Both the position numbers and the translations under genes were made by a program. Of a stretch of DNA of 64,000 nt, positions 334-21,777 are shown in pieces. The stretch is from a bacterium. Its GTDB lineage: Bacteria > Zhuqueibacterota > QNDG01 > JAFGCO01. Within the stretch, counting starts at the first letter, position 1, and every line of letters starts with the position of its first letter. The stretch is taken from contig JAFGCO010000036.1 of the NCBI GenBank assembly GCA_016932575.1, forward strand, positions 1 through 64,000, given 5' to 3'. The notes below the pieces were generated by a model. It did no database searches. It saw only the letters and a program-made list of their open reading frames with translations, and was not told the DNA's origin.

Positions 334-1881
334 ATGAACCATCGATGGATTCAGTGGCTGTTCATTCATTTATATCTTTCCATTTATCTAATGGGTCAAT
401 TCCCTTCAGTGAATCAAATTGTCGAGGCGGAAGACGCGTTTCTTCAGGACAGCATTGTGGTAAAAAGAGATCCTTCTGCACGCAATAAACATTTTGTTTA
501 CATGCCTGAAAAGCAGGGATCTGTAACATTTCAGGTAGAGGTAGGCACCACTGCAAGATATGCCCTGTATATTGCCTACAGATCATCCGATGCTGACAAT
601 GCACAGCACATTCTGATCAATGGTAAAGAATATGCACCGGAAATCGGTTTTTCCGTCAGCCGGAATTGGACCGAAATCCGGCATTCAGCGGGTTTAAAAA
701 CAGGACAAAACAACATCGAACTCAGGGCATCCTGGGGAAACATGGATATCGATTATCTCCGGATTACAGGCCCTGTCTTTGACCCTCCGGAAATCACACC
801 TGTACAGAACTTTTATTATAAATATCAAAACGATACAGACCTGGTCATCCAGCTGGAAAAAAATCACAATGCATTCGCCAATATCACACACAACAATCGT
901 ACAGTACCGTTTCAATCTGATTCAGTTTGGTATCTTGAAGATGCAGTGACAATCACCATCCCTTCACGTTTTCTCGATACCTTACAGGATGGCAGGACAG
1001 AATTCGTTTTCAATTTTAATCATACAGAGTCCATTCCTTTTCATCTCAACGTTTGTGAATCTGCCCCTGAACCTGACTGGACAATCATTTCACTTGACGT
1101 GCGACACGGGACTGCTGTTCTCATGTGTTTACCGAATGAGAAAACATTACTGATCGACACCGGAACAGAAGCAATGTGCAAAAAAAATGTCCTTCCGTTT
1201 CTGGACCGGCATTATATTATCCTCGATTATCTCTGGATCACCCACCATCATGCCGACCATGACGGTGGTGTTCCGCTGCTTCAACAAAAATATCCGGATC
1301 TTGTCATGACCGATTATCATGACTACCAGACAGATGAGCGGTTCGATTTTGAAGGGATTGATGTGTTGATACTCAACTCGCACTCGGACGGAAACGACAC
1401 GGCAGGCGAAAATTCACGTTCGCTTTCATTCCGCATGGCATACCAGGGCTTTGTGTATACCCATGGCGGAGACATCTACGGAGAAAATCAGCAGAGAATT
1501 CTGAAAAGTTACACCCGAAAAAACAGGCTGGATCTTTTAAAAACCCATGTTTATCATGCCAATCATCATTTTCATGGGTCTGTAAATATATCCTATTTAA
1601 AAACAATCGATCCCTGTCTGTTTCTGGTATCCGGAGAGGAGCATATTTACGGCCGCGCCGCTTATACCCATCATGTCAAGCAAACCGTGCTTCCGTTTTT
1701 ACGTGACAACAATCATCGGCTCATTGAAGATTTACTGCCTTTTGAGGTGGGACATGTGGTGATTCGGGTACAGAATAATAAAAACTGGCAATATGAAACC
1801 TATTATCATCTTGATAAAAAAATTCCATTTTTAAACCCCCAATCTCAATCAAGGAGAGATCATTATGATATCAACCCATAA
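334..1881 (+). CDS. Secreted CBM plus metallo-beta-lactamase-fold hydrolase
   Basis: 515 residues. A hydrophobic N-terminus (about 1-25) looks like a signal peptide. Residues about 30-145 look like a CBM6/35-type jelly roll: it opens with VEAEDAF and closes with DIDYLRITGP. After a linker domain, a metallo-beta-lactamase fold starts near 250. The zinc motif HHHADH lies at residues 304-309, followed by further His and Asp positions (YHANHHFHG, EEHIYGRAAYTHH). The overall pattern recalls the ComEC/Rec2-type hydrolase domain, but without membrane segments. The substrate is unknown; a secreted phosphodiesterase or esterase acting near a glycan is only a guess. The 3' end overlaps the GH31 start by 17 nt, so the two genes are probably translationally coupled. 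The start has only a weak ribosome binding site. Confidence 0.75.
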   Translation: MNHRWIQWLFIHLYLSIYLMGQFPSVNQIVEAEDAFLQDSIVVKRDPSARNKHFVYMPEKQGSVTFQVEVGTTARYALYIAYRSSDADNAQHILINGKEYAPEIGFSVSRNWTEIRHSAGLKTGQNNIELRASWGNMDIDYLRITGPVFDPPEITPVQNFYYKYQNDTDLVIQLEKNHNAFANITHNNRTVPFQSDSVWYLEDAVTITIPSRFLDTLQDGRTEFVFNFNHTESIPFHLNVCESAPEPDWTIISLDVRHGTAVLMCLPNEKTLLIDTGTEAMCKKNVLPFLDRHYIILDYLWITHHHADHDGGVPLLQQKYPDLVMTDYHDYQTDERFDFEGIDVLILNSHSDGNDTAGENSRSLSFRMAYQGFVYTHGGDIYGENQQRILKSYTRKNRLDLLKTHVYHANHHFHGSVNISYLKTIDPCLFLVSGEEHIYGRAAYTHHVKQTVLPFLRDNNHRLIEDLLPFEVGHVVIRVQNNKNWQYETYYHLDKKIPFLNPQSQSRRDHYDINP

Positions 1882-3982
1882 ACATGTCAGGCGGTCATTA
1901 TTGATTCCAATATTATTAGCACTCATATTCTGGAGAGTCATAGCGGCAGGGCAGGAACTGATTCCTTCGAAACTGTCAATTCAATTAAAAAATAATTATC
2001 CGTTGATAAAAATAGAAAATCCTACGGGTGAACCGGTAATTATCAGGCCGATATCTTCGGGAGCCGGCAGCATCGGTTTTAGAAAAAATGGAAAAATCCG
2101 ATGGTTGACCGGAGCGCCGGACTGCACACATGCGCCCGAAACATATACCTGGATTATGAATACATCGGAAAAAATCTCTCTTCATATAGACTGTGATAAA
2201 ATAAACATCCATTTGCGTTTCGCCTGGACGGGTAACAGGGATTCAGAGCCGGATCAATGGATCTTAAATATCGGGGCAGAGACGGATGAATACTTCACTG
2301 GTATTTTTGAGCGGGTCATAGACGGGCGTCAAAACCGTTCCTGGGAACCTGGCATCGAAACCGCGATGGATCTGCATGGAGAACGTGTGGAAATGAAACT
2401 GAAACCCACGGTATCCGCGTATGCACCATTCTATCTGTCTTCAAAATTGTATGGAATTTTTATCAAGGGAATCTGGCCAGGAGTCTTCGATTTTTGCAAA
2501 GAAAACGATCACACGGTTCAGATTGCATTCGAGGGCCCCGAATTCAATTTAAAACTCTATTTTGGTACGCCCATGCAAATCGTGCGATGTCACGCACTTG
2601 AAACCGGTCCGTCCTTTTGTCCCCCGGATTGGGCTTTCGGTCCCTGGCGCTGGCGCGACGACCACCAAAACAACACGCGATATTATGACAGCACCGAAGT
2701 TAAGTCTCCTTACAATAGTCAGCTGGTTGAGGACGTGTTAATGATGAAAGCCTTTGATATCCCGTGTACTGCTTACTGGGTGGACAGGCCATGGGCCAAG
2801 GGCCCGCGGGGATTTGATGATTATGAATTCGATCCGGACCGATTCCCCAGCCACGAAAAGATGATTCGGTGGATAAACCGACATGGTATGGAATTTATGA
2901 TTTGGATCGCCCCCTGGGTCATGGGAAACATGGCAAATGAAGCAGTGAGAAACGGATACACGCTTAAAAGCCGGTCAAGAGGAAAATATCAGCAGGAATT
3001 GATCGATTTTACCCACCCGGAAGCAAGAAAATGGTGGTCGGAAAAAGGCCCATCCAAACTCGCCCGGCTGGGAATCCGGGGCTATAAACTGGACCGGGCA
3101 GACGGTGAGAAACTGATTGACTCGCTTCACTTGAAAACCTATTCCGGGAAATCCTACAGGGAAAATTACAATGATTATCCCCGTCAATATGTTAAAGCGG
3201 CATTTGAAGCCGTTCAGCCGGTTCTCGGAGACAACTTCATTTTGTATCCTCGGGCCCAATACACCGGAAGCGCAAAATACGGCGGTCTATGGGCCGGTGA
3301 TACGAACGGACGCCCTGAGGGTCTGCGTTCAGCGATTATTGGATTACAGCGCTGTGCTGTAATGGGATACCCTGTATGGGGATCGGATACCGGCGGATAC
3401 TGGGGAGATTTTTCTCACGAAACCTGCAAACGCTGGCTGGCGTTCAGTTGTTTCTCCCCGATTATGGAAGTGGGACCAACCAATAACCATGGATTCTGGG
3501 ACAATCCTGAAGAGCCGCATTATGATGTGGAATTGATCGCCACATGGCGTCTCTACTCAATTATTAGAATGCGAATTCAGAAGTATTTATACTCACTGGC
3601 CAAAGAAGCATCGAAAACGGGAATCCCCATTGTCCGGCCGTTGTTTCTGGTATATCCGGATCAGAAGGAAGCCTGGAGGGACTGGCAGACATTTATGGTA
3701 GGACCGGATATTCTGGTTTCAGCAATCTGGGAATCGGGGATTACAATGCATCGTCTTTATCTTCCCGACGGAGAGGTCTGGCTAAATGCATGGAATCATC
3801 AACCGCAGTCCGGCGGAGAATATGTGTCCGTCCCGGCTTCAATTCCCAGAATACCCGTTTTCATTCGCCAGGGATCAAAAATAGAGCTGGAAGACCTGGA
3901 GAAATTGTATCAGGAATCCCTGCAAATCGCATCTGAAAGACCCGATCTGGCCGAATTGGAAAAAGCCGAAGGCTGGCGATAG
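1865..3982 (+). CDS. Glycoside hydrolase family 31 (alpha-glucosidase/xylosidase type)
   Basis: 705 residues with an N-terminal hydrophobic export signal. The N-terminal beta-sandwich (about 25-250) precedes the catalytic barrel. The barrel carries the family landmarks: AYWVDRPW near 300, the nucleophile in GYKLDRADGE (Asp410) and the acid/base in GLWAGDTNGR (Asp479). Spacing between the two Asp residues is normal for GH31. The variant around the nucleophile (LDRADGE instead of the common DMNE) suggests a specificity outside the classic alpha-glucosidases. The start is supported by AAGGAGAG just upstream and lies inside the end of the metallo-hydrolase gene, so the two form an operon. It is followed by a terminator. 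Substrate not predictable; alpha-glucoside, alpha-xyloside and alpha-galactoside activities are all known in this family. Confidence 0.88.
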   Translation: MISTHKHVRRSLLIPILLALIFWRVIAAGQELIPSKLSIQLKNNYPLIKIENPTGEPVIIRPISSGAGSIGFRKNGKIRWLTGAPDCTHAPETYTWIMNTSEKISLHIDCDKINIHLRFAWTGNRDSEPDQWILNIGAETDEYFTGIFERVIDGRQNRSWEPGIETAMDLHGERVEMKLKPTVSAYAPFYLSSKLYGIFIKGIWPGVFDFCKENDHTVQIAFEGPEFNLKLYFGTPMQIVRCHALETGPSFCPPDWAFGPWRWRDDHQNNTRYYDSTEVKSPYNSQLVEDVLMMKAFDIPCTAYWVDRPWAKGPRGFDDYEFDPDRFPSHEKMIRWINRHGMEFMIWIAPWVMGNMANEAVRNGYTLKSRSRGKYQQELIDFTHPEARKWWSEKGPSKLARLGIRGYKLDRADGEKLIDSLHLKTYSGKSYRENYNDYPRQYVKAAFEAVQPVLGDNFILYPRAQYTGSAKYGGLWAGDTNGRPEGLRSAIIGLQRCAVMGYPVWGSDTGGYWGDFSHETCKRWLAFSCFSPIMEVGPTNNHGFWDNPEEPHYDVELIATWRLYSIIRMRIQKYLYSLAKEASKTGIPIVRPLFLVYPDQKEAWRDWQTFMVGPDILVSAIWESGITMHRLYLPDGEVWLNAWNHQPQSGGEYVSVPASIPRIPVFIRQGSKIELEDLEKLYQESLQIASERPDLAELEKAEGWR

Positions 3983-3997
3983 TCATAAATAAAAATT

Positions 3998-4022
3998 CCC
4001 GGGGAGAAATCAGCTCCCCGGG
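3998..4022. terminator. Bidirectional terminator between convergent genes
   Basis: Perfect 9-bp stem CCCGGGGAG / CTCCCCGGG with a 7-nt loop, between the GH31 stop at 3982 and the convergent sulfotransferase stop at 4041. The T-run is better for the minus strand (AAAAATT on the plus strand just left of the stem); the plus-strand exit is GCTTTC. Confidence 0.8.
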
Positions 4023-4040
4023 GCTTTCATACGGCTTAAT

Positions 4041-6314
4041 TCATTTCATCAATATCATTTTAATGACACGTTCAAAGGTCTGGGGTTCTTCTTTAGGCCC
4101 GGCTTTCATTTTACAGAAATAGACACCGGAGCTTAATGATTCATCATGAAAAACAAGAAGGTGACTTCCTGGAGAATAACTTCCCTTCTTAATCTCCCTG
4201 ACCTGCCTGCCCAGAATATCATATAAAACAAACGTAACATCACTTGAATAAGGAACTGAAAATTTCAATGTCGTTTTTCCATTAAACGGATTCGGATAAT
4301 TCTTTTCCAATTGATATCGTTCAGGCTTTACTGCTTTTGTTTCATCAACAGAAGTCATGACCTGCTTCAGCGATACATTATCGACATACAGTGTGCCCGT
4401 ATTTTCTCCCATTAAAAAACCTGCAATCGCTTCGGAGGTACTTGAAGAGCGTTTTGTGAATTCATAAGCATAATGTTTCGAGCTGGTACCCATTGGAACG
4501 TTGCCGATACGGGAGTAATCCCGACTCGCCGTATTATTGGCTACCATGGGAAGTATATTCAGTTTTTGATCGGCCCAGGCATCAAATTCGAAACGGTAGG
4601 TTTGATCTTCTAAAAGTTCGACCGGATATTGAAAAACATAGGCACCACCGTTATTGCCGGATATCGAACCGACATGAAGATGATACACACCGTCATTCAC
4701 TTCCCCCTCTGCATTGGTAGAATAACCGTACATCCCAAAAATCCAGAAATCATCCCCGCCTGAAAAATCCCCGTTCAGTATTTGCTCATCCCCCGGCCCG
4801 ATCCGTTTTATCATCGTCGCCTCTTCATTGGAAAAATCGGACTCCACTCCGGTTTTACTGACGGAAGTGACCCTGAAATAATGATACTGTATATTTTCCA
4901 GATTTTCGAATGATTTCATGGTCAGCCGGCTCGAATCAAGGATCGCTGTCGGATGCGGATCTGTTCCATGATATATATTATAATAATCCACATCCGGATC
5001 ACCGAATTGATTAAACAGCAAAGTGGGACCTGCCGGTCTGGATTCAATGATCAGATAGGGTCTGACAGCGGGTACGTTCCAGTCAAATTTGTAGGTTCGG
5101 TAACAATCATAATGGTTGATAAAATTCATTTCATACACTTTTGTTCCGTCCGGAGTCACTTCCGTGGCTTTAGGCCGTCCGCCTTCGGCCCAGTTAATCA
5201 GTGTGTTGCCATTGGGCAGCCGCTGGGCATTCCCCATATAATGAGAAAATTGAGCATCAGGATCCTGCCTGTATTCCCACACCAGGGTAGCGGTCATGGC
5301 ATCTAAGTCCAGCTCATATTCGACTGCGCGTGAGGTTTTCGGATTATGATTGTTCCCGTTGTCAAACAGAAGATACCGGTTGTTTCCCAGAACACTGACA
5401 GCATGCTGACCCGAGAATCCATTGAAGGGATCATTGACAAAAGTAAAATTCCCATTGATTCCGCCCAGTTTCCAGATAATCTCACCAGTTTGCCGCTGAA
5501 TTTTATAGACTGCGCTCAAATGGCGGCATGAAAAAATCAGATTATTGTCCTCGTCCACATCAATGGCATTCATATGGGGAAAGCGTCCGCCGTATTTTAC
5601 ATGTTCTTCGATTTGTGTGAATTCCCCGATATTCAAATTTTCCTGAGTGTCAAAATGTAATATCAGATTGCCTTCACTGTCAAATTCCTGAAGATGTGAA
5701 AAAGCCACTCCGGCATTGGTTTTGCCATCTTCAAAAAATTCGCTCATATCGACTTGACGGTAATCCAGTGCAACCAGCAGATAACCGCCATCTTCAAGTA
5801 CCACAAGTTCGTGTTCATCAACTTCATAAAACCGTCCTTGATTGTCAGGGGCTGCAAGAAATGTATCGACCACTGCATAAGTGGAATCATAGGCTATAAA
5901 CGCGCCGCCCGGAATTCCGTTTATACTCGGTATGTATCTTGCAGTCAGCAGGCCGTTGCGCTGCACTTTAAAATCACGCTGCCGTGCTATTGTTTTATTA
6001 TACCAGTATGGGGTTCCGTCGGAATTGAACATGACATTGTAGGGTGACGAGTCGCTCCAGTTGTTCAGAAAAATTTTTCCAGGAGCAGGATTTTCATTCA
6101 CCATTACCTCGATGTAGGGAAAATCGCTGGGTACGGATACACCATTTGCCAGAATAGTCGGTTCTCCAACGACCATCGGAGATCGCTTTTGGGATTCGGA
6201 GGATGGTTCGGAGAGCTGTGATGAATTAATCATTGGTTTTCCAAGAGAAATCCCGGCAACCAGTGATACCCAGAAACTCAACAATATAAAAACTCCGATA
6301 AAACGCTTAACCAT
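4041..6314 (-). CDS. Arylsulfotransferase-like secreted protein, paralog 1 (T9SS tail)
   Basis: 757 residues: signal peptide (1-24), an ASST-type beta-propeller (about 50-430), an FN3-like segment (about 430-520), a CBM4/9-like jelly roll (about 525-665, opening NGDFSGGDDFW) and a C-terminal sorting module (about 675-757, YPNPFNGKTTLKFSVP). Propeller signatures include FPHMNAIDVDEDNN, SCRHLSAVYKI, GEIIWKLGG and SGQHAVS. The three conserved His positions fit the catalytic and substrate-binding His pattern of arylsulfate sulfotransferases, which move sulfate from a phenolic ester to another phenol. Whether this is a transferase, a hydrolase or a binding propeller is not decided by sequence. AAGGAG precedes the start. 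It is the last of three tandem paralogs, 83 nt after paralog 2. Confidence 0.8.
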   Translation of the reverse strand: MVKRFIGVFILLSFWVSLVAGISLGKPMINSSQLSEPSSESQKRSPMVVGEPTILANGVSVPSDFPYIEVMVNENPAPGKIFLNNWSDSSPYNVMFNSDGTPYWYNKTIARQRDFKVQRNGLLTARYIPSINGIPGGAFIAYDSTYAVVDTFLAAPDNQGRFYEVDEHELVVLEDGGYLLVALDYRQVDMSEFFEDGKTNAGVAFSHLQEFDSEGNLILHFDTQENLNIGEFTQIEEHVKYGGRFPHMNAIDVDEDNNLIFSCRHLSAVYKIQRQTGEIIWKLGGINGNFTFVNDPFNGFSGQHAVSVLGNNRYLLFDNGNNHNPKTSRAVEYELDLDAMTATLVWEYRQDPDAQFSHYMGNAQRLPNGNTLINWAEGGRPKATEVTPDGTKVYEMNFINHYDCYRTYKFDWNVPAVRPYLIIESRPAGPTLLFNQFGDPDVDYYNIYHGTDPHPTAILDSSRLTMKSFENLENIQYHYFRVTSVSKTGVESDFSNEEATMIKRIGPGDEQILNGDFSGGDDFWIFGMYGYSTNAEGEVNDGVYHLHVGSISGNNGGAYVFQYPVELLEDQTYRFEFDAWADQKLNILPMVANNTASRDYSRIGNVPMGTSSKHYAYEFTKRSSSTSEAIAGFLMGENTGTLYVDNVSLKQVMTSVDETKAVKPERYQLEKNYPNPFNGKTTLKFSVPYSSDVTFVLYDILGRQVREIKKGSYSPGSHLLVFHDESLSSGVYFCKMKAGPKEEPQTFERVIKMILMK

Positions 6315-6397
6315 TGTTATCTCCTTGGATCCTTCGGTCCGTTTATTTATGATACACCTTTCATGATGACAATACTCTGTGAAAAACCGGATTGCTT

Positions 6398-8683
6398 CTA
6401 TTTCAGGCAGATTATCTTCCGAACCCGTTGATAAACCATTTCCCTCTGCGCCGACCGGGCTTCCATCCTGAAAAAATACACACCGGAACTTAACAATTCA
6501 TCCTGAAATATAACTCGATGCTCGCCCGGATCATAGACGCCTTTGTGAATTGAGCTTATCTGCTTTCCCTGTATGTCATACAAGGTGATCACGACTTCAC
6601 TCGTTTCTGACAGGGTAAAGGGCAGTGTTGTTATGCTGTTGAACGGATTGGGATAATTGTTACCCAGCTGAAATGACACTGGAATATCCTTATGTTTATC
6701 ACTCACTGATGTTACAACCTGCTTCAGTGAAACATAATCGATATATAATGTCCCCGTATTGGTCTCAATAAGGAATCCGGCCAATGCAGTTGTTGTGCTG
6801 GCTCTACTTTTGGTAAATTCAAAAGAATAAACTTTATTTTCTTCGGTCACCTGAACAGAACCAATTCTTGAATAATCCGTACTGGCATTTCCAGACATCA
6901 CATAAGGCTGGATTTGAAGTTTCTGATCGGACCAGGCGGCAAATTCAAAAATATAAGTTGCATTTTCCAGCAACTCGACAGGAGACTGAAACACATTTGC
7001 TCCGCCGTATCCCATAACATCTGTGACACGGAGACGATACACTCCGTCAACAACTGCACCGGAGGCGCTGATATCCCCATAGGTTCCGAAGGTCCAGAAC
7101 GTATCACCTTCTGTAAAATCAGGATTGATTATCTGATTTTCTCCGGGAGCAATATTTTTCACAAACACGGCTTCTTCGTTGGAAAAGCCGGATTCTTTAC
7201 CTGACTGATCAACAGAGGTTACCCGGAAATAGTGATTTTTTTTGTTTTCAAGTTGATCGAAATTTTTCATCGTCAAACGACTCGTATCCAGAAGTGTTGT
7301 CGGATGGGGTGATGTGTCATGGTAAATGTTAAAATAATCAACATCGGGATCGTTGAATTGATTGAAAATAAGAAAAACGGCATCCCGGTGATTCTCCGCA
7401 ATCAATTCAGGCTTTAAAGCTTTTCCCTCCCACTCGCACCGGTAGGACCGGTATCCGGATACTCCATCAACCTCAATTTCAAAAAGAAGGTTGTTGTTCG
7501 AGTCAACTTCGCAGGCACGCATGGGCGGCCGTGTGGACCAGTCGATATAGGTATTGCCATTCGAAAGCCGCTGCACACTGCCCATCATAAAAGCGTAATT
7601 GACTTTATCGTACCGATATTCCCAGACTTTTTCGGCTGTCATGGCTACCGGATCGATTTTATATTCTACAGCGCGTGTAAAAGGAGGTGTATGGGAATCT
7701 CCATTATCATAAATGGTATAATGGTTGGGTTTGCCGGGCACCGGCCGGGCGTGATGCTGGCTGGAAATCTGTGTATTTTCATTGATAAATGTGAACTGAT
7801 TATTCTCACCTCCCAGGCGCCATATGAAGTTGCCGGTGCTGCTATTGATTTTGGCCACCTCATTATAATATCGCAATGAAATAATATAATGCCCGTCATA
7901 GTCTTTGGCGATAGAATTAACATGGACATAATCGATCAGTCCCCATCCAGTCGCAAGATTTGCTTCAACGGCATCTTCAATATCAAGACGGTCTGCACTG
8001 CTCCATTCCCAGTACAGACGGCCGTCACTGTCCAGTTCCTGAATATAATTATGAATCACCCTTGCATTGGAATGTCCTCCAGGGATATTACTGAGATCTT
8101 CGGTCTTTATCTCCTCGGCAATGAGCAAAGCGTGTCCATTGGGCAGAATGAGAAACTCATGGTTGTCTGTCCAGTACTGATCACCGCATATGAATGTATC
8201 GATATGCGTGAAGGTCTGATCCATGATATAAAAAATACCGCTCTCCACCTTCAGATACTGATGGAACGTCAGGAGTCCATTTTCCTGAACCCTGAAATCT
8301 GCCGTACCTTTATCTGAATCCGGTGAACGATCATATCTTCGGTAAAAATAAGGAGTGCCGTCATTCTCACAAATCACAAGATAATTGCCCCGTCCGCTTC
8401 CGTCAAAAAATGTGCTTGAAAAAAAAATACGACCCGGTGCTGTTTGGCCATATTGACATGTATGGATTTCCGGAAAATCACTGGGCACTGCGACGCCATT
8501 TGAAAGTATCCGGGGGTTGCGTCCAGCAGATTGAAACCATCGATTTACGGACCGATCAAAGTAAATATTATTTTGAAATTGTAAAGGCTCTTTAAAACAG
8601 TTTGATATTTGTAAGTCGGAGGCAAATATATTTGCTGACAATAATAAGCTGACAATAATGATCACGGATATCCATTGTTGCAT
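6398..8683 (-). CDS. Arylsulfotransferase-like secreted protein, paralog 2 (T9SS tail)
   Basis: 761 residues, with the same domain order as its neighbours: signal peptide, ASST propeller, FN3-like segment, CBM4/9-like domain (opening NPDFTEGDTFW) and sorting tail (YPNPFNSITTLPFTLSE). Propeller marks are DYVHVNSIAKDYDGH, GNFIWRLGGENN and SSQHHARP, so the His positions are kept, with an extra His at the third site. I chose ATG 8683 because GAGG sits at the right distance in front of it. The ATG at 8695 has no ribosome binding site and would add four residues. It diverges clearly from paralogs 1 and 3 in the propeller loops, suggesting different acceptors or donors. Probably co-transcribed with paralog 1. 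Confidence 0.78.
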   Translation of the reverse strand: MQQWISVIIIVSLLLSANIFASDLQISNCFKEPLQFQNNIYFDRSVNRWFQSAGRNPRILSNGVAVPSDFPEIHTCQYGQTAPGRIFFSSTFFDGSGRGNYLVICENDGTPYFYRRYDRSPDSDKGTADFRVQENGLLTFHQYLKVESGIFYIMDQTFTHIDTFICGDQYWTDNHEFLILPNGHALLIAEEIKTEDLSNIPGGHSNARVIHNYIQELDSDGRLYWEWSSADRLDIEDAVEANLATGWGLIDYVHVNSIAKDYDGHYIISLRYYNEVAKINSSTGNFIWRLGGENNQFTFINENTQISSQHHARPVPGKPNHYTIYDNGDSHTPPFTRAVEYKIDPVAMTAEKVWEYRYDKVNYAFMMGSVQRLSNGNTYIDWSTRPPMRACEVDSNNNLLFEIEVDGVSGYRSYRCEWEGKALKPELIAENHRDAVFLIFNQFNDPDVDYFNIYHDTSPHPTTLLDTSRLTMKNFDQLENKKNHYFRVTSVDQSGKESGFSNEEAVFVKNIAPGENQIINPDFTEGDTFWTFGTYGDISASGAVVDGVYRLRVTDVMGYGGANVFQSPVELLENATYIFEFAAWSDQKLQIQPYVMSGNASTDYSRIGSVQVTEENKVYSFEFTKSRASTTTALAGFLIETNTGTLYIDYVSLKQVVTSVSDKHKDIPVSFQLGNNYPNPFNSITTLPFTLSETSEVVITLYDIQGKQISSIHKGVYDPGEHRVIFQDELLSSGVYFFRMEARSAQREMVYQRVRKIICLK

Positions 8684-8905
8684 AAAAAACCTCATATTGA
8701 GATCACAAATCGATACAAAAATAATTTTTATATTGACAATATACTACCCATTACGAATGGCTTTTGACAATGTTCCCGCAGAATACTGAATGAAGCCGCT
8801 TGATGACATTTTTTTACAAATTGCCGGATACCGGTGATTATTTCCTTTCCAATCCGGAGAAAATTTTATATTTATTGACCTTTTAATTGTAAAAATGGTC
8901 ATGGA

Positions 8906-11200
8906 TTACTTGAGATAAATCATTTTGACAATTTGATGATAAAGCTGCCGGCCGTTCGCAGTTTCAGCCGCCACATGAAAAAAGTAAATCCCGGAGCTGA
9001 GAGACGGATTCTGAAAAGAAAGCTGATGATCGCCGGGAAGGTAATTGCCTTTTCTGACGGTTCCGGTCTGTCTTCCCAATACATCATAGAGCGTCATACA
9101 GATACGACATTCGACAGGAACATTCAATGTCATCACTGTCTGATCATTGAACGGATTGGGATAGTTTTGACTTAATTGAAAATCCAGTGGCAGATCATCT
9201 GCTGTGAAATATACGGCAGAGGCGACCTGCTGTTTAAAACTCACATGATCAAAGTAAACATCACAGCCGGGTTGGTCGGTTATAATAAAAGCCAGAACTG
9301 CTTCACTGTTGGCAGATCCGGATATAAATTCATACGAATAGGATTTTCTCTCCTGAGTAATCTGTATCTTGCCTATTTTTGAATAATCAGAGCCGCTGTT
9401 GTTATTGATTACTGCTGGTTGAATTCTCATGGTTTTACTGGCCCATGCATCAAATTGCATGATATAAGATTTTTTCTGTTTTAATTCCATAGGCATTTGT
9501 CCGAGATATACGAGCCAGGATGAACCAGCATTCTCCTGAATACGCACGTGATACACTTCATTTTCTACACTGCCGGAAGCAGTCACTTCACCATTTACAC
9601 CAAACTCCCAGTATTCATCCTGATCTGCAAAATCCGGATTCAGCACCTGATTGCCACCCGGCTTGATCAGTTTCACCAGCACGTATGCTTCATTTGAAAA
9701 ATCCGATTCCTCTCCCGATTGGTTAACCGAAGTAATCCTGAAATAATGCTCTTCTTTATTTTCCAGATCCGTCAGTGTTTTCATGGTCAGCCGGCTTGTA
9801 TCAAGCACTGCGGAAGGCGCCGGATTCAATCCGTGATAGATATTGTAATAGTCGACCTGACCGTCTCCGAATTGATTGAAAATCAGTGTGATTCCTGCAG
9901 TTCCGGATTCCACAATCAAATAGGGCTTGACCGCGGGTGCATCCCATGATTCGCGATGAACCCGGTAACACTTTTCACGATCCTCGAATTTCATTTCATA
10001 GGCAATGGTTCCATCCGGACGCACTTCCGTTACATTCGGGTGTCTGTCCGATCCCCAGTTGATGAGTTTGTTGCCGTTGGGCAGCTGCTGAACATTGCCG
10101 AACTGTCCTGAATATCTTCCGGGCTGGCTTCGGTATTCCCAGACCAGGGTTGCGGTCATCGCCTGCGTATCAAGCACGTACTCCACACCGCGGGATTCCT
10201 GGGGCCAGCGTCCATTGCCGTTGTCGAATATCGAATAATGTCCGTTGCCGAGGCACCGGGCGTCATGCTGCGCGGAAAAACCATCAAACGGATCGTCAAT
10301 AAAGACAAAATCGCTTCTCAAACCGCCCAGCCTCCATATGATCTCCTTGGTCTCACGGTTGATTTTGGTCACTTCCGACAGATGCCGGCTCGATATTACC
10401 AGATGGCCGTCCTCGTCGATATCTATAGAATTGATGTGAGGAAAATCAATGAAACTGTCAGTGAGATGCCAAAGAGCCGGATCTATGTCTGTATATTCAA
10501 AATGATTCAGAGAACGCCATTCCCAGACAACGGAATCCCTTTCATTCAATTCCCGCAGATTAGTCAAATCGATATTGGCATCCGGATCGCCGCCTTGGAC
10601 AATAGTGCGCATATCCACGCCAAACAGTTTTTCTTCAGCGATGATCAGATAGTGACCGTTCGGCAGTACCCGCAGTTCGTGTTCATCTACATAGGCATTC
10701 GGACCTGCATAAAAGGTGTCCACTACGGTATATGTGTTATCCATCCCGATATAACTGTGGGGAATGGTACCAAAAACAGGATGATTATATGTCGTCAATG
10801 CGGTCAGGAGTCCAGTCGGCTGTTTCGTAAATTGGCGTAAAATAGCATCGAGTTTTTGATACCAGAAAGGCGTGCCGTCATTATTGAGAATCAGAATATA
10901 TGGAGCATTAGAATCACGATAGCTCAGAACAATCCTGCCCGAAGCCGGATTTTCGTTGGTCAAAACATTCGAATATGGAAAATCGCTCGGCACCGAAACC
11001 CCGTTGGCAAGAATCGCAGGTTCGCCGAAAACAGTGAATGCTCTAGAATCTGAATTGCCTTTTTCCTCCGTAAAAACTGAAGGATCGGAACCGGATTGTT
11101 CCTCTTTAAAGTAAATGGCATTGAATGAAGCATGAAGCGAAATTGAAAGGGTGGATAAAAATATAAGAAAAATAAGCGTTCTTAAATGTAGATATCTCAT
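8906..11200 (-). CDS. Arylsulfotransferase-like secreted protein, paralog 3 (T9SS tail)
   Basis: 764 residues: signal peptide (about 1-25), ASST propeller, FN3-like segment, CBM4/9-like domain (opening NPDFADQDEYW) and sorting tail (YPNPFNDQTVMTLNVP). Conserved propeller strings are FPHINSIDIDEDGH, SSRHLSEVTKI, KEIIWRLGG and SAQHDARCLG. It is closer to paralog 1 than to paralog 2 by eye (shared FSAQHD/FSGQHA and PAVKPYLIVES/PAVRPYLIIES segments). It lies directly downstream of the alkaline phosphatase gene (158 nt) in the same direction, and a GGGAG stands before its start. The 205-nt gap to paralog 2 has no hairpin terminator, so read-through is possible. Confidence 0.8.
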   Translation of the reverse strand: MRYLHLRTLIFLIFLSTLSISLHASFNAIYFKEEQSGSDPSVFTEEKGNSDSRAFTVFGEPAILANGVSVPSDFPYSNVLTNENPASGRIVLSYRDSNAPYILILNNDGTPFWYQKLDAILRQFTKQPTGLLTALTTYNHPVFGTIPHSYIGMDNTYTVVDTFYAGPNAYVDEHELRVLPNGHYLIIAEEKLFGVDMRTIVQGGDPDANIDLTNLRELNERDSVVWEWRSLNHFEYTDIDPALWHLTDSFIDFPHINSIDIDEDGHLVISSRHLSEVTKINRETKEIIWRLGGLRSDFVFIDDPFDGFSAQHDARCLGNGHYSIFDNGNGRWPQESRGVEYVLDTQAMTATLVWEYRSQPGRYSGQFGNVQQLPNGNKLINWGSDRHPNVTEVRPDGTIAYEMKFEDREKCYRVHRESWDAPAVKPYLIVESGTAGITLIFNQFGDGQVDYYNIYHGLNPAPSAVLDTSRLTMKTLTDLENKEEHYFRITSVNQSGEESDFSNEAYVLVKLIKPGGNQVLNPDFADQDEYWEFGVNGEVTASGSVENEVYHVRIQENAGSSWLVYLGQMPMELKQKKSYIMQFDAWASKTMRIQPAVINNNSGSDYSKIGKIQITQERKSYSYEFISGSANSEAVLAFIITDQPGCDVYFDHVSFKQQVASAVYFTADDLPLDFQLSQNYPNPFNDQTVMTLNVPVECRICMTLYDVLGRQTGTVRKGNYLPGDHQLSFQNPSLSSGIYFFHVAAETANGRQLYHQIVKMIYLK

Positions 11201-11358
11201 CTAATATATAACTCCCGCATTTATTTATTGATAATTTTCCCATTGAACATATGAATTAATTTGATATTTAAAAATTTTAAAGCCTCTGTCAATTTAATGA
11301 AAAATATACTATTGGACGATCAACGAAACCAAGTTGTTGACAACAATATTGTCATTTT

Positions 11359-12735
11359 TCACTGCTGCATCACATCAAATAAAGCCCGCCCCAGCTCTGC
11401 ATTATCCAGATACGGTCCGCGGACCGGATCGTGTTCATCCGCCAGAGTTTGAAAGCGTTGTGCCCCCATGCCTTTGGCGTAAAACGGAACCAGGCTGTTC
11501 GTATGCTCTTCTGAATACCATTTCATTCCGGGAACCTGGTTTTTGCCCCGATTCTCGATTGGTCTCCAGCGGGGTTCGGCTCCCGTTAACCAGCCAAAGA
11601 GACCGCTTCCCGATTTTTTTCCCAAAAGGTATCCCGTCTCATGGTCAGCAGTAACAATTAGCAGCGTTTCCTCCCAGCTGCTGTGAGACTCTATCCAGTT
11701 GACCACTGTCTGAGTCGCCAGGTTGAAATCCAGCATTTCTTCGATCATTCGCCCGGATTGATTGTCATGACTCGCCCAATCCACTGCGCCGCCCTCAACC
11801 ATCAGAAAAAATCCATCCGGATTAAAGTCAAGCATGCAAAGTGCACCCTCAGTCATTTCATGCAGCATGGGGACTGTTTCTATCCATGTCTCCTTAAAGG
11901 GGGGAGCTTTTTCATGACCCGGACGTCCCTGCTCCAAGGTCTTGAAAACTTTGGGTATACCTAAAACACGCATGAATTCGGACGCGTCTTTTAGCGCAAG
12001 AAAATCTTCCCGATCTTCAATCAGCGTCCAGGGATCATCCACACCGTCTCCATTCCTGTCGGCGCCGATAATACCCTGCCGAATCAACTGCCATAAATGT
12101 GGATCCACATATTCATAATCGCATTGTCTATTTAAAACAGACTGTCCTGAACAATCATATTCCGGATGGCCGCATCCCATGATCAGATCGATGGCGCTTT
12201 CCTGAATCATCTGTTCTGCAATCCGGTGGTATTCATCACGGTTGTTATGATGTGAAGCGAATGCGGCAGGCGTGGCATGACTGAAGGGCACTGTTGTGAC
12301 CAGGCCTGTGGCCCTGCCCAGACTTTCACAGTGCTCTACAATATTTGCAATGGATTTTTTTAAAGGAGTCATACCCAGAAATTTACTATTCGTTTTTATT
12401 CCGCAAGCCATGGCGGTTGCAGCGGCAGCAGAATCCGTGGGCTTTTTCTTGACAAACTTAAAATCATGCCAGGCTTTTTCCGGATCATATTTATTTCCTG
12501 ATGCAGAATAGGTGCTCATGGCACAGCATACCGGGAATTGCTCATAAACTTGGGTGCCGGACTCTCCGAACTCATAATAACTGGAGGCATCCACATGATT
12601 ATATCCGCCTCCGTCACAAATCATAAAAATAATATTTTTTGGGTTTTTCGCGTATATGGCTCCCAGCGAAACTGCAATAAGAGCCAATATGCCTTTTACG
12701 ATTTTTAAATTCGCTTTATTATTTTTCGGGTGCAT
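11359..12735 (-). CDS. Alkaline phosphatase, exported
   Basis: 458 residues. Start placed at ATG 12735, not at 12831: GAGGTGAG precedes 12735 and the next residues form a signal peptide (IVKGILALIAVSLGAIYA). The active-site string PTDSAAAATAMACG puts the nucleophile at Ser102. Metal-ligand motifs of the PhoA family are present: FMICDGGG, VEGGAVDWASHDN and VTADHETG, plus a C-terminal His in YSEEHTNSLVPF. It would act on phosphomonoesters in the periplasm or outside the cell. It is the first gene of a same-strand run with three arylsulfotransferase paralogs and is divergent from a CapA-like gene. The phoA symbol is avoided because orthology within this large family is uncertain. Confidence 0.9.
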   Translation of the reverse strand: MHPKNNKANLKIVKGILALIAVSLGAIYAKNPKNIIFMICDGGGYNHVDASSYYEFGESGTQVYEQFPVCCAMSTYSASGNKYDPEKAWHDFKFVKKKPTDSAAAATAMACGIKTNSKFLGMTPLKKSIANIVEHCESLGRATGLVTTVPFSHATPAAFASHHNNRDEYHRIAEQMIQESAIDLIMGCGHPEYDCSGQSVLNRQCDYEYVDPHLWQLIRQGIIGADRNGDGVDDPWTLIEDREDFLALKDASEFMRVLGIPKVFKTLEQGRPGHEKAPPFKETWIETVPMLHEMTEGALCMLDFNPDGFFLMVEGGAVDWASHDNQSGRMIEEMLDFNLATQTVVNWIESHSSWEETLLIVTADHETGYLLGKKSGSGLFGWLTGAEPRWRPIENRGKNQVPGMKWYSEEHTNSLVPFYAKGMGAQRFQTLADEHDPVRGPYLDNAELGRALFDVMQQ

Positions 12736-12759
12736 ATCGCTCACCTCATGATTTGGTTC

Positions 12760-12788
12760 TTGACAATCATTATATGATTTTGTACGAT
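12760..12788 (+). promoter_or_regulatory. Sigma70-like promoter with a palindrome in the spacer
   Basis: TTGACA (12760-12765), a 17-nt spacer, then TG-extended TACGAT (12783-12788). The spacer contains the perfect 15-bp palindrome AATCATTATATGATT (12765-12779), a likely operator between the divergent phosphatase and CapA-like genes. Transcription would begin near 12795, which rules out the in-frame ATG codons at 12753 and 12774 as starts of the downstream gene. Confidence 0.6.
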
Positions 12789-12815
12789 AAAGAGTTCTAT
12801 GAAAAAGGTATAAAT

Positions 12816-14015
12816 TTGAAATATCGAGCATATCGACATTTTTTTAAAACTTTTGGTTTATTTGGTTATTTATTATTTCAAATCACCCAGGCACAAATCC
12901 GTATTCAACGGGTGGACAGCTGCAACATCGCAGCTGTTGGAGATATCATGGTGCATGACAGCCAGATTGCCTCTGCCTGGAATGAAAATAAAAAAATCTA
13001 TGATTTTACCCCTTCTTTTCAGTATGTCAAACACCAGTTATCCCGTGCAGACTTAACCATCGGCAATCTGGAAACTACAACGCCCGGACAGAAGAAAGCA
13101 TATTCCGGATATCCTCTTTTCGGCGCGCCTGATGCTTTGATCGAGGCATTGAAATATGCCGGATTTGACCTGCTCTCAACGGCCAATAATCATGCTTGCG
13201 ATAAAGGCAGGCAGGGCCTGATTCGGACTCTGAATGTGCTGGATACCCATAAAATTGCTCACTGTGGCACCTATCGAAATAAAAAAGAATACGAAGACAA
13301 CCGAATATTGGTCCTCGATTGTCAGCATATCAGGCTGGCCTTTTTAAATTATACGTATGGCACAAACGGCCTTCGCATTCCGAGCGGAGTGGTTGTCAAT
13401 CTGATTGATTCTGTGCAGATTGCTCAGGATATGTCACTGGCCCGGGCAAAACAGCCCGATGTTATATGCGTGCTCCTTCATGCAGGGGCTGAATATCGTT
13501 CAACGCCTGATGATTTTCAAAAAAAATGGATCCATTTACTCCTGGATGAAGGCGCCGACATCGTTCTTGGAACCCATCCCCATGTGGTTCAACCCTTTTT
13601 ACTGGAACGTCGACGGGATAAATACGGCAGGATTAAACCGAGACTGGTGATCTATTCTCTGGGCAACTTCATTTCAAATCAAAAAAGACCGCACACAGAC
13701 TGCGGGATTATTTTCTCCTTTACGATTAAAAAATATACAACGGATCTTGACCGGACCCATATCACAATGGAACACATCCATTACTCACCCCTGATGGTCT
13801 ATGAAGCAAAAACATCCTCGCATCATGCGCATTACCTTCTGCCTGTTCATGATTTCATTCAAAATCAGTCATCCTTGAATCTTCCCTTTTCCGTGCATCG
13901 CAAGCTGTTGAAGATCAGTGCCTATTATAAAAATCATTTGAAATCCAGTTCGGAGCAAATAAAAAAATTCGTGCAATCGCAGAAATTCGGCCGATCATCG
14001 ACCGCCGTATTTTAA
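12816..14015 (+). CDS. CapA family protein (PGA_cap metallophosphoesterase fold)
   Basis: 399 residues if translation begins at TTG 12816. That start has AAAAAGG 7 nt upstream and gives a plausible signal peptide (FKTFGLFGYLLFQITQAQ). The in-frame ATGs at 12753 and 12774 lie in or before the promoter. Family motifs: AAVGDIMVHDSQI, GNLETTTPG, LLSTANNHACDKG, VCVLLHAGAEY-like strand, GTHPHVVQP and YSLGNFISNQ. CapA proteins belong to the calcineurin-like phosphoesterase fold and were first linked to poly-gamma-glutamate capsule; many homologs have no proven role. No capB/capC genes are nearby, so capsule synthesis is not supported here. Divergent from the alkaline phosphatase, possibly sharing its regulator. 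Confidence 0.82.
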   Translation: MKYRAYRHFFKTFGLFGYLLFQITQAQIRIQRVDSCNIAAVGDIMVHDSQIASAWNENKKIYDFTPSFQYVKHQLSRADLTIGNLETTTPGQKKAYSGYPLFGAPDALIEALKYAGFDLLSTANNHACDKGRQGLIRTLNVLDTHKIAHCGTYRNKKEYEDNRILVLDCQHIRLAFLNYTYGTNGLRIPSGVVVNLIDSVQIAQDMSLARAKQPDVICVLLHAGAEYRSTPDDFQKKWIHLLLDEGADIVLGTHPHVVQPFLLERRRDKYGRIKPRLVIYSLGNFISNQKRPHTDCGIIFSFTIKKYTTDLDRTHITMEHIHYSPLMVYEAKTSSHHAHYLLPVHDFIQNQSSLNLPFSVHRKLLKISAYYKNHLKSSSEQIKKFVQSQKFGRSSTAVF

Positions 14016-18236: not shown

Positions 18237-19376
18237 TCATACCCTCACAAAAACCCGGTGCACGTACAAGATTGCCATCAGGCCTGTCCAGAGAAGCACA
18301 TAGAGTATCGCGAATACGAGTGAACCGAGCATGTCTCCAAAAACCGGCGTACACACGAACTGATATATCAGGGATGCGAGAGATGTGCCGCCAACCTTGA
18401 TCATCGACAGCACCCGCCCGCCCAGAGACGACAGAAAATAGACCAGAATCGCGTTGCTGCCCAGCACCTGAAACGACTTGGACCAGCGTGTCCAGCCCTT
18501 CACATCCACCAGCCACATGCAAATCCCCAGCACTCCCAATGCTAATCCAGAGGTGAGAAATACATATGACGGTGTCCACAGATTTTTATTGATGGGAACA
18601 ATCAAGCTCAGCAGATAGCCTAAAAGAACGCCTGCCGTGCCTGCCACAAAAAGCATCATCAGTTTTTGCATCCGGTTCTGATGCTGCAGCCTCAGCCACC
18701 AGGCACAAATCAAGCCTGAAATAGTGGTTGCCAGGGCAGGCAGTGTGCTCAGAAGCCCTTCAGGATCCCAGGTTTTCGAGAAACGCCACAGATGCGGTCC
18801 GAAGACCCACCGGTCCACATAGGCGGCCAGATTCCCTTCTTTTGAATCCCATAATCCCGCGCCGTATCCGGGAACCGGCACAAAACGCATCAGGCCACAG
18901 TACAGCACCATGAATCCCAACCCCAACCACATTATAAACCTGGGCGAAAAATACAGCCGGTCTCCCGCCATCCGGACACGGGCCAGGTAGATTAATGAAA
19001 TGATGAGATAACAACCGGCGATTCGCTGCAGCACTCCCGGAATCCGCAATGTATTGAAATTATAATCCGGAAATCCGTTTAAAATCAGTCCGAACAAAAA
19101 CAGGAGTATTGTGCGACGAAAAATCCTTGGCAGCAAAGACGCTTTCGGTTTTCCGGATTTTAAATACTTATCCATAGAAAGCTTGATGGATGCCCCCATG
19201 ATAAACAGAAAAAACGGAAACACCAGATCCGTGGGCGTCCATCCGTGCCATTCGGCATGACGAAGCGGTGCGTATACATGTTGCCAGCTCCCGGGATGAT
19301 TTACGAGAATCATGGCCGCAATGGTCAATCCCCGAAATACATCCAGCGAAACCAGCCGTCCGGAATTTGTTTTCAT
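18237..19376 (-). CDS. NagX/HGSNAT-like membrane acyltransferase (DUF5009 type)
   Basis: 379 residues, about ten hydrophobic segments. The N-terminus SLDVFRGLTIAAMILVNHPG and the following HAEWHGWTPTDLVFPFFLFIMG are the hallmark of the family that includes bacterial NagX and eukaryotic heparan-alpha-glucosaminide N-acetyltransferase. The His in HAEWHGW region is the presumed acetyl carrier. Family knowledge suggests acetylation of amino sugars or import-linked modification; bacterial function is not firmly proven. Gene order (symporter, GH20, this gene, all minus strand) supports a role in N-acetylhexosamine use. It is separated from GH20 by 361 bp of repeat DNA. Confidence 0.85.
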   Translation of the reverse strand: MKTNSGRLVSLDVFRGLTIAAMILVNHPGSWQHVYAPLRHAEWHGWTPTDLVFPFFLFIMGASIKLSMDKYLKSGKPKASLLPRIFRRTILLFLFGLILNGFPDYNFNTLRIPGVLQRIAGCYLIISLIYLARVRMAGDRLYFSPRFIMWLGLGFMVLYCGLMRFVPVPGYGAGLWDSKEGNLAAYVDRWVFGPHLWRFSKTWDPEGLLSTLPALATTISGLICAWWLRLQHQNRMQKLMMLFVAGTAGVLLGYLLSLIVPINKNLWTPSYVFLTSGLALGVLGICMWLVDVKGWTRWSKSFQVLGSNAILVYFLSSLGGRVLSMIKVGGTSLASLIYQFVCTPVFGDMLGSLVFAILYVLLWTGLMAILYVHRVFVRV

Positions 19377-19449
19377 AAGCCCTCTTTTATTTTTTCCTGT
19401 TCAAGTGAATGAATCATTAACAGGACAATATTTTTTACATGAACGATTT

Positions 19450-19560
19450 AAAATCCCAAACAACAAATCAAAAATTCCAAACACACTTTTCTTTGTTTGT
19501 TATTTTGGTCATTGGAATTTGAAATTTATTTGAAATTTGGATTTTGTTATTTGGAATTTT
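19450..19560. repeat. 111-bp A/T-rich inverted repeat
   Basis: Arms 19450-19481 and 19529-19560 (32 nt each) are imperfect reverse complements, around a 47-bp centre. Themes AAATTCCAAA / TTTGGAATTT recur several times. MITE-like; it lies between the GH20 and NagX-like genes of one apparent operon. Confidence 0.6.
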
Positions 19561-19589
19561 TTCACCACCAATCCTTATATTCTCTTTGT

Positions 19590-19737
19590 CTTTAATTATT
19601 TATCCTGTTTCTTGATTCTTATTTCTTGATTCTTTCTTTCTCCGCTTCTCCGTCTCTCCCACGCTCTGTCTCCGTCACTCAACCATCGACACAATGACTC
19701 AATGACCCTGCGACTCTACGACCCAATGACTTCTTTC
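19590..19737. repeat. TC-rich dispersed repeat, copy A
   Basis: Pyrimidine-rich plus strand with TTTCTTGATTCTT, TTTCTCCGCTTCTCC and CGACTCTACGACCCAATGAC. Closely related blocks occur at about 52010-52120 and 55625-55715, inside the longer repeats there. No coding potential. Ends exactly at the GH20 stop. Confidence 0.6.
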
Positions 19738-21774
19738 TTATCTCTCCGGCACACCATCGACCAGCTGCTTGATGGCCGAGACAATCATCAATTCTGTCTG
19801 ACCATGCGGATCGTGCATTTTTTTCAAAGTCTTCAGATGATTTTTTTTCCACTTCTTTTTCACCGGATCCCCTTTACGTATTTTATTCAGGGCTTCAAGG
19901 CCAATCTGAGCACAAATAAACAGATGTTCTGCATGGGGTTTGATTTCATCAAGGGCCGGTATCTGCCGGATCAGCGCCGTCAGTTCTGAATGATTTTCCT
20001 TCCATACGGACATCTGCTCCTCGATCATCTGAGCGGTTCCTGGTTCTAAATTAACTTCCAGGAATGCCTTGACATTCCATCTGAATTTCCTGGCCACTGA
20101 TGCGTCCGGCCGTGCAATATCCACCATACGTGTCATGGGCGAATAGGAAGTATATTCACGAAGCGCACCACGTTGATATCCCTTGACCGGTTCCAGCACA
20201 TCCACCAGCACTTCCAGAGGATGGATTTCACGACTGCAAATCAGGCGCCGCAGCATCATTCCCCGGTTTTTCTCATGGGTCAATCCTAATTCCTCCAATT
20301 GGAGTGTAATCGCTTCTAAACGGCTGTACATATCATGCACGTCTTTCACGGATTCCGGAGACCAGAACCTCTCGGCGATAGCAGCAGTTCTGGGCCAGAT
20401 CCGGGAATCGATTGTCTCAGGGGTCACAAATTCCGCCCACATGGTCGTTTCACCTCCCAGGATGAATTTCCTCTGTTCTTCGGTCAGCTTAACATCTGCA
20501 GGCGACGGATCATTGAGATAATGGATATCTGCAGGATGAATAAGATCAATATAATATCCGTTTGATAAAATTGTATAAACACTGTCTTTGGCGCATTGAA
20601 TCATCGCTTCCTTGCCCCGCCAGGATTGGATCAGAATGGACTTGGGAAGCTCCGGATGTAAAATCTCATCCCATCCCATCATTTTTTTACCATAATAACT
20701 CAGAATCTGATTGACCCGCCGGTTGAAATATGCCTGCAGCTCATGAAAATCACGGATATCATTGGCTTCCATAAATCTGCGGATCGTCCTGTTTTTCTTC
20801 CAATGGATATAATTGGCTTCGTCGCCGCCGATATGCATGTACTCATCCGGAAAAAGTGCGCACATCTCATTAAAAAATCCATCCAAAAATGCATAGGTCT
20901 GTTCCCGGGTTGGATCCATGACCGCTTCATGGATGCCCCATCCACGACTGATTTCATAAGGTCCGGGAGCACTGGCAAGATCCGGATATCCCGCAAACCA
21001 ACTGGTCGTGTGACCTGGAATGTCAAATTCGGGCACCACCCGAATTCCCCGATCATCTGCATAGGCAATAATTTCTTTTATCTGAGCATGGGTATAATAC
21101 AGGCCGTCCGAACCCATTTCATGCAGTTTGGGATAGGTTTTACATTCAATCCTAAATCCCTGATCTTCGGATAAATGCAAATGCAGCACATTCATTTTCA
21201 CGGCAGCCATTCCGTCCAGATTTCTCTTAATAACTTCCGAAGGCATGAAATGCCGGCACACATCGATCAGTAAACCCCGCCAAGGGAAACGCGGTTTGTC
21301 CTGAATCGTAACACATGGAAAATAATAGCCCGACGAATTTACTTTCAGTAACTGGAGAAGGGTCTCAAATCCCCTTAAAGCGCCTATGTCCGTATCGGCA
21401 GTCAGTGTAACTGATTTTGGCCGGATTGTAAGTGTATAGGATTCATCCTGATGCAGTGCCACTTTTCCTGGTAAAACCACATGAACCTGCATGGCAGCCG
21501 CATGTTCCAATTGGCCGGGTCTGATGAAATCCTGAGTAAAAAATAATCCCGTACGGGCGGACAACTGTCGCAGCATCCGCGTGGCAGCCCGGTACCCCCT
21601 TTCATGGGGATTCCCTGTCACGGAAATTCGGAATGAATCATCAAGAAGAAATTTTCCTCTTTGAACTTCAATATCAGCAGGATACGGCATCAGATCGAAT
21701 ACCTGCACATCCTGAGAAGCATATGCACAAACACCAACAGAGAAACAAATAAATAATATAATCCCCCAATTCAT
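19738..21774 (-). CDS. Beta-N-acetylhexosaminidase, GH20
   Basis: 678 residues: signal peptide (1-20), GH20b domain (about 25-150), TIM barrel (about 155-480), C-terminal helical extension. The catalytic pair is Asp318-Glu319 in YMHIGGDEANY; other landmarks are VVPEFDIPGHTTSW, MMGWDEIL and IQSWRGKE. It releases terminal GlcNAc or GalNAc by substrate-assisted catalysis, probably in the periplasm, since there is no sorting tail. It starts 3 nt after the symporter stop (TGA-ATA-ATG), with AGGAAGGTGA inside the symporter end, so the two are translationally coupled. Confidence 0.93.
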   Translation of the reverse strand: MNWGIILFICFSVGVCAYASQDVQVFDLMPYPADIEVQRGKFLLDDSFRISVTGNPHERGYRAATRMLRQLSARTGLFFTQDFIRPGQLEHAAAMQVHVVLPGKVALHQDESYTLTIRPKSVTLTADTDIGALRGFETLLQLLKVNSSGYYFPCVTIQDKPRFPWRGLLIDVCRHFMPSEVIKRNLDGMAAVKMNVLHLHLSEDQGFRIECKTYPKLHEMGSDGLYYTHAQIKEIIAYADDRGIRVVPEFDIPGHTTSWFAGYPDLASAPGPYEISRGWGIHEAVMDPTREQTYAFLDGFFNEMCALFPDEYMHIGGDEANYIHWKKNRTIRRFMEANDIRDFHELQAYFNRRVNQILSYYGKKMMGWDEILHPELPKSILIQSWRGKEAMIQCAKDSVYTILSNGYYIDLIHPADIHYLNDPSPADVKLTEEQRKFILGGETTMWAEFVTPETIDSRIWPRTAAIAERFWSPESVKDVHDMYSRLEAITLQLEELGLTHEKNRGMMLRRLICSREIHPLEVLVDVLEPVKGYQRGALREYTSYSPMTRMVDIARPDASVARKFRWNVKAFLEVNLEPGTAQMIEEQMSVWKENHSELTALIRQIPALDEIKPHAEHLFICAQIGLEALNKIRKGDPVKKKWKKNHLKTLKKMHDPHGQTELMIVSAIKQLVDGVPER

Positions 21775-21777
21775 TAT

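Follow-up and report, generated by a model that had tools for sequence, protein, structure and literature searches.

Tandem arylsulfotransferases with differing propellers, predicted to be surface-sorted, in a KSB1-type bacterium

Three tandem genes for arylsulfotransferases (ASSTs), preceded by an alkaline phosphatase gene, lie in the first 64,000 nucleotides of contig JAFGCO010000036.1 (GenBank assembly GCA_016932575.1; Zhuqueibacterota), a stretch that will be referred to as the window. To judge by their modules and active-site residues, the products are very probably catalytically competent enzymes of the cell surface, and we tentatively propose that they sulfate a glycan held by their own carbohydrate-binding modules (CBMs), using a sulfate donor made by the cell. 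A first-pass annotation had described four exported proteins encoded on one strand, and open reading frames as well as profile matches confirm that all four genes are real. New relative to that annotation are the kinship of the ASSTs with Cpz4, the caprazamycin ASST of Streptomyces, and a gene set elsewhere in the genome in which an ASST adjoins a ketosynthase of the ketoacyl-ACP synthase III (KASIII) type and a sulfotransferase of the type that uses 3′-phosphoadenosine 5′-phosphosulfate (PAPS).

Modules and active sites of the three arylsulfotransferases

The features of the ASST genes, numbered against the order of transcription, are as follows.

8906-11200, minus strand: ASST copy 3, type C, 764 aa (Pfam, NCBIfam, type C clade)
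10265-10267, minus strand: His312 codon of copy 3, matching E. coli AssT His436 (alignment and position)
6398-8695, minus strand: ASST copy 2, type C, 765 aa, chimeric by sequence (Pfam, NCBIfam, lineages of propeller and accessory modules)
7754-7756, minus strand: His314 codon of copy 2, matching E. coli AssT His436 (alignment)
7376-7408, minus strand: approximate position (aa 430-440) where copy 2 switches lineage, at the propeller/FN3 border (sliding identity, L115-like to copy-1-like)
4041-6314, minus strand: ASST copy 1, type C, 757 aa (Pfam, NCBIfam, AlphaFold model, Foldseek)
5403-5405, minus strand: His304 codon of copy 1, matching E. coli AssT His436 (alignment to 3elq)
4359-4796, minus strand: copy 1 CBM4-like module, aa 507-652 (PF02018; profile match to 1gui; Foldseek match to 1gui with TM 0.78, rmsd 2.6)
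4044-4298, minus strand: copy 1 C-terminal sorting domain, type A, of the type IX secretion system (T9SS), aa 673-757 (TIGR04183, PF18962)

Each protein begins with a signal-like N-terminus, continues with an ASST propeller, a fibronectin type III (FN3)-like stretch and a CBM4-like module, and ends in a T9SS tail; overall identity among the three is 46%. The propellers matched PF05935 with 94-109 bits (cut-off 24.2; E 1e-26 to 4e-31) and PF14269 with 82-93 bits (cut-off 27). CBM_4_9 (PF02018) scored 26.2, 27.6 and 35.2 bits in the three copies (cut-off 25.9). For the T9SS tail, TIGR04183 exceeded its cut-off of 23 in all three (35.5, 30.1 and 25.8 bits), and Pfam Por_Secre_tail did so in two, with copy 3 at 26.4 against a cut-off of 27. 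The FN3-like stretch had no Pfam match in the three copies, while close paralogs score PF00041 weakly. An export signal is indicated by the hydrophobic N-terminus and by a helix over residues 2-20 in the structural model, so that the combination of signal peptide and C-terminal sorting domain characteristic of T9SS type A cargo was found. With signal, PF02018 and TIGR04183 in all three copies, the earlier description of exported, T9SS-sorted, CBM-bearing ASSTs holds.

In E. coli AssT, His252, His356, Asn358 and Arg374 bind the sulfuryl group and His436 is the catalytic residue (PMC13426309). In profile alignments to solved ASSTs, the residues of copy 1 at these five positions were, in that order, His168, His247, Asn249, Arg264 and His304; as a check of the register, the 4p04 chain aligned likewise, with N at position 436. 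Each window copy retains the full set of five, including the catalytic His, whose loss from all three copies the first-pass annotation had named as fatal to its view. Among 86 type C proteins (defined below) from several phyla, the equivalents of His252, Asn358 and His436 were found in 86/86, that of His356 in 85/86 and that of Arg374 in 78/86. The region of AssT Thr501 aligned roughly to G in the window copies, as in nearly all relatives. Sulfate transfer as the chemistry of the window ASSTs is well supported at the level of sequence.

The nearest solved chains by sequence profile were 9kf4 and 9kf6 (Cpz4), with E ~2e-60 over the propeller and FN3-like part, compared to 3e-18 for E. coli AssT. 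The AlphaFold model of copy 1, based on a 36-sequence alignment (mean pLDDT 86.7, pTM 0.73), predicts a propeller fold like that of solved ASSTs; pLDDT was mostly >90 in the propeller, and the arrangement of the domains is less certain than the domains themselves. Cpz4 was again the best Foldseek match (E 1e-29, TM ~0.7 of Cpz4) and is thus the closest relative by both profile and fold. In the caprazamycin pathway, the PAPS-dependent Cpz8 sulfates a triketide pyrone, from which Cpz4 transfers the sulfate group on to a sugar (PMC4257720, PMC6731281), with sugar hydroxyls as its preference (PMC13426309). There is also a parallel of logic outside the window, as Cpz4 is encoded together with a PAPS-sulfotransferase and a ketide-making enzyme. 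However, it is one protein of 472 aa in an antibiotic pathway and has neither CBM nor T9SS tail, whereas at least 15 ASST copies occur here. AssT of E. coli CFT073 (PDB 3elq, 3ets, 3ett) shares H252, H356, N358, R374 and H436 but is a single protein, a periplasmic homodimer whose N-terminus carries a beta-sandwich, and its similarity is far lower; it lacks CBM and surface sorting and uses exogenous phenol sulfates. In overall layout (signal peptide, catalytic domain, FN3/CBM, C-terminal sorting domain) the window proteins resemble T9SS-sorted multimodular carbohydrate-active exoproteins of the FCB (Fibrobacterota-Chlorobiota-Bacteroidota) group, in which, however, the catalytic module is a glycosidase or lyase instead of a sulfotransferase.

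Propeller lineages and the composition of copy 2

Between the three copies, propeller identity is 38-50%, and the propellers do not form one clade. In approximately unbiased (AU) tests a single propeller clade was rejected with p = 0.0216 (146 rows) and p = 0.000173 (81 rows), values that are weakened, like the p-value for copy 2 below, by the fact that the clades were picked after viewing a tree. The FN3-CBM parts, on the other hand, form one clade (support 98). A recent or simple triplication was therefore rejected for the propellers, which derive from different old lineages. Of the diverged triplication in the first-pass annotation, the differing propellers on nearly common FN3-CBM modules stand, and the simple triplication does not.

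Copy 2 combines both patterns within one protein. Its propeller is 62% identical to that of a KSB1 relative (L115) and 38-39% identical to those of the neighbouring copies; past aa 430-440 its FN3 and CBM parts share 63% and 59% identity with copy 1, compared to 33% and 27% with L115. Grouping the FN3-CBM part of copy 2 with L115 was rejected (p = 0.000667). Because the propeller is L115-like and the FN3-CBM part copy-1-like, copy 2 is, by sequence, a head-swapped chimera with its junction at the propeller/FN3 border, and a gained head and an overwritten tail both fit. An assembly error is unlikely to underlie this pattern since the identities are so low. General homogenisation of FN3-CBM parts within arrays was not significant (10 adjacent versus 237 non-adjacent pairs, p = 0.29). 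Accessory identity exceeded propeller identity by ~10 points or more in three adjacent pairs, of which the window holds two, and in no non-adjacent pair.

Relatives, gene pairs and a possible sulfate donor

The genome that carries the window (G000; KSB1-type, 4.4 Mb, 72 contigs, 94.5% complete) contains 15 ASST places, most of them with the same modules as the window copies. Within the phylum, ASSTs were detected in 24 of the 82 genomes; two of these, G002 and G061, hold at least 20 each and G000 at least 15, and all others have at most five (a separate count gave 26 for G002). Window-like ASSTs also occur in Fidelibacterota and, including proteins of ASST-FN3-CBM4 architecture, in Ignavibacteriota, Bacteroidota, Calditrichota, Verrucomicrobiota and Planctomycetota. 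The surface-anchored, CBM-bearing architecture, which the earlier annotation had singled out, is accordingly nothing special to this locus, and the three copies are no isolated triplet. The proteins of Verrucomicrobiota and Planctomycetota share the clade and the core modules of the window copies, but in place of the T9SS tail they have C-termini of dockerin-like type, with PF00404 above its cut-off in L121, and some carry LamG or PA14 towards the N-terminus. One protein of the window's own genome (L040 8055-10286) matches the FN3-CBM part, apparently twice, without an ASST propeller match. A 24,530-aa frame for one ASST (C63) was rejected as a giant protein, being an artefact of masked N runs. 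Nothing relevant was found in the literature, with subscription papers and preprints outside the scope, on KSB1 sulfotransferases, on T9SS with arylsulfotransferases or on CBM-bearing bacterial ASSTs.

A propeller tree of 146 proteins set apart two groups with strong support, type C (86 rows, including the three window copies) and type I (38 rows). In 22 cases from several phyla a type C gene is directly followed by a type I gene, mostly with gaps of <50 nt, and in Verrucomicrobiota and Planctomycetota a type I gene is usually next. Such two-gene units are seen, for instance, at L084 9905-14965, L096 9923-14961 and L065 8273-14491. Some type I proteins lack the equivalents of His436 or Arg374, and because of these losses type I may include non-catalytic partners. 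Among 118 neighbour proteins, none other than ASSTs was conserved across phyla, apart from T9SS-tailed proteins in scattered places and GH5 (glycoside hydrolase family 5).

In four of the 82 phylum genomes (G000, G002, G047 and G061) a type I ASST adjoins a KASIII ketosynthase and a PAPS-type sulfotransferase, in the following runs.

L106 (G002) 2035-13960: KASIII, PAPS-type sulfotransferase and ASSTs, in the order C-C-I-KASIII-sulfotransferase-C-C
L139 (G061) 1096-10111: KASIII, PAPS-type sulfotransferase and ASSTs, in the order I-KASIII-sulfotransferase-C-C
L037 (G000, contig C24) 7726-12824: KASIII, PAPS-type sulfotransferase and ASST
L051 (G047) 7363-12445: KASIII, PAPS-type sulfotransferase and ASST

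Gaps in the G002 and G061 runs range from -4 to 149 nt; the first two genes of the G002 run were assigned to type C and the third to type I on the strength of their scores and of the same genes as they appear in L091 and L046. The propeller of copy 2 falls in the clade that holds the type C genes of these two runs. The four sulfotransferase-positive genomes include every one of the three that are rich in ASSTs, a coincidence with a chance of 4.5e-5 when kinship is left uncorrected. The ketosynthase belongs to the KASIII/FabH family (PF08541, PF08545, FabH-type NCBIfam models) with an intact Cys-His-Asn triad, and in the sulfotransferase the 5′- and 3′-phosphate (PAPS) motifs are intact; the roles of triad and motifs are general knowledge. 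On contig C18 of the window's genome (L142 6122-10716, L143), ATP sulfurylase, a CitMHS-type permease, adenosine 5′-phosphosulfate (APS) kinase and a CysQ-like phosphatase form a run, beside which a PF00685 sulfotransferase lies in an exopolysaccharide locus. Because of this run and this sulfotransferase, both PAPS and sulfated polymers are plausible in this organism.

From these data we propose the following scheme. The window ASSTs would be PAPS-independent sulfotransferases of the Cpz4 branch, exported by Sec and then sorted by T9SS to the outer surface. The sulfuryl group of an aryl or other activated sulfate ester would be taken up by the active-site His304, His314 or His312 and would next pass to hydroxyls of a carbohydrate polymer bound by CBM4. 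Different propellers on related FN3-CBM modules might equip one locus for different donors or for different acceptor positions of one target. The donor would be made by the cell: KASIII would build a small ketide, the PAPS-type sulfotransferase (in this genome that of C24) would sulfate it, and the exported product would be used by the partner type I ASST and by the window-type, type C ASSTs.

The locus, rival explanations and implications

All four reading frames of the locus lie on the minus strand and are transcribed in the order phosphatase, copy 3, copy 2, copy 1, with spacers of 158, 210 and 83 nt. Two further features complete the locus.

11359-12735, minus strand: PhoA-type alkaline phosphatase, predicted to be exported (PF00245, E 2.6e-55)
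4022-3998, minus strand: terminator-like hairpin just 3′ of the copy 1 stop, 9 pairs, 8 of them G-C, the strongest of the region

The phosphatase frame may open at 12831, the signal-like start being the Met at 12735. No terminator-like site was found on the minus strand of the three spacers, and weak promoter-like sites occur in two of them, although consensus scans are a poor guide in this phylum; a single transcript across the four genes is plausible. Since the hairpin stands between convergent genes, it may serve both sides. The convergent genes (334-3982, plus strand) encode a CBM35-bearing protein of metallo-beta-lactamase fold and a GH31 glycosidase. Elsewhere in the window, an HGSNAT/DUF5009-like membrane protein, a GH20 hexosaminidase and an SSF symporter in a row (18237-23649) resemble an amino-sugar uptake unit, and a LacI-type regulator precedes a protein that combines carboxypeptidase-regulatory-like and TonB-receptor plug domains (55934-60322).

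The phosphatase carries the motifs CDGGG, TDSAA, DWASH, TADHE and EEHTN and is the sole PF00245 gene of its genome. The first-pass annotation had suggested a pairing of sulfate transfer with dephosphorylation, and phosphatase and ASSTs might indeed form one unit that swaps phosphate for sulfate on a polymer, as the genes are adjacent, on the same strand and not separated by a terminator-like site. Yet one of the weak promoter-like sites lies in the 158-nt spacer, and PhoA-type enzymes usually act on small monoesters. At the other loci examined, no homolog of the phosphatase stood beside an ASST and the phosphatase-ASST order did not recur, nor was PF00245 among the common neighbour families. 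Such an exchange is therefore highly improbable, and the phosphatase is probably an incidental neighbour. Hardly more credible is a role without catalysis, in which the propellers would keep the ASST fold but act as surface adhesins or as structural proteins. The very many T9SS-tailed proteins of this genome and the residues lost from some type I relatives would fit it; against it, the invariant His252, Asn358 and His436 equivalents of type C extend over several phyla and include the three window copies.

The opposite direction of transfer, in which sulfate is stripped from sulfated polysaccharides onto a small acceptor to aid degradation, finds some favour in the nearby glycan-degrading genes (GH31, the CBM35 protein, GH20, the HGSNAT-like protein, GH5), in a GH88 gene just upstream of one paralog and in nine sulfatase-family places in the genome. 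We consider net desulfation improbable because ordinary sulfatases are present for that job, the linkage to a PAPS-type sulfotransferase points to the addition of sulfate, and known ASSTs use activated aryl esters, alkyl sugar sulfates having poor leaving groups. More serious, if still unlikely, is a supply of environmental aryl sulfates such as plant, algal or humic phenol sulfates, with phenolics or glycans as acceptors and some other purpose for the KASIII-sulfotransferase set. Exogenous phenol sulfates serve other studied ASSTs besides AssT (PMC13426309), and many genomes carry type C genes and C-I pairs while lacking the sulfotransferase. However, the tight runs of type C genes with KASIII and sulfotransferase in G002 and G061 and the sulfotransferase-positive state of all three ASST-rich genomes speak against it, and CBM4 with T9SS or dockerin tails points to polymer-associated work.

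Sulfation of a CBM-bound glycan by surface ASSTs from a cell-made donor is the best of the explanations offered, although we stop just short of calling it probable. Taken by themselves, the glycan acceptor is an evenly balanced call and the cell-made donor a possible but somewhat more doubtful one. Several points weigh against the scheme. The CBM4 profile matches are only slightly over the cut-off, the ligand-binding role being predicted, and we know of no biochemistry for any close member. The genomes with the donor set are few and not independent; the window has no donor genes, and the set on C24 adjoins type I only. The ketide maker of caprazamycin is a type III polyketide synthase (PKS) and the one here a FabH-like KASIII, so that the parallel to Cpz is one of logic ("works like") and not of membership. 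When the sulfotransferase was used as query in 28 other-phylum genomes with C-I pairs, 25 gave no match, and the three matches were G047 again and two proteins of 23-27% identity; as this sulfotransferase was not found there, the donor in those genomes must come from elsewhere. No transporter for the donor was identified. It is less likely still that KASIII with the PAPS-sulfotransferase carrier, surface ASST arrays sulfating cell-surface or matrix glycans, and propellers swapped on a shared FN3-CBM chassis together make up a self-contained, KSB1-type system of extracellular sulfation.

Little is known of what ASSTs do in the living cell or of their natural substrates (review PMC13426309). A donor-making gene pair encoded with surface ASSTs would, if true, give this family a concrete and testable role, and the two-step sulfation of one antibiotic-pathway kind would extend to cell-surface glycans. 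PAPS is cytoplasmic, a problem that would be solved by sulfating an extracellular polymer without it. The head-swapped copy 2, finally, points to a route by which ASST arrays can diversify.

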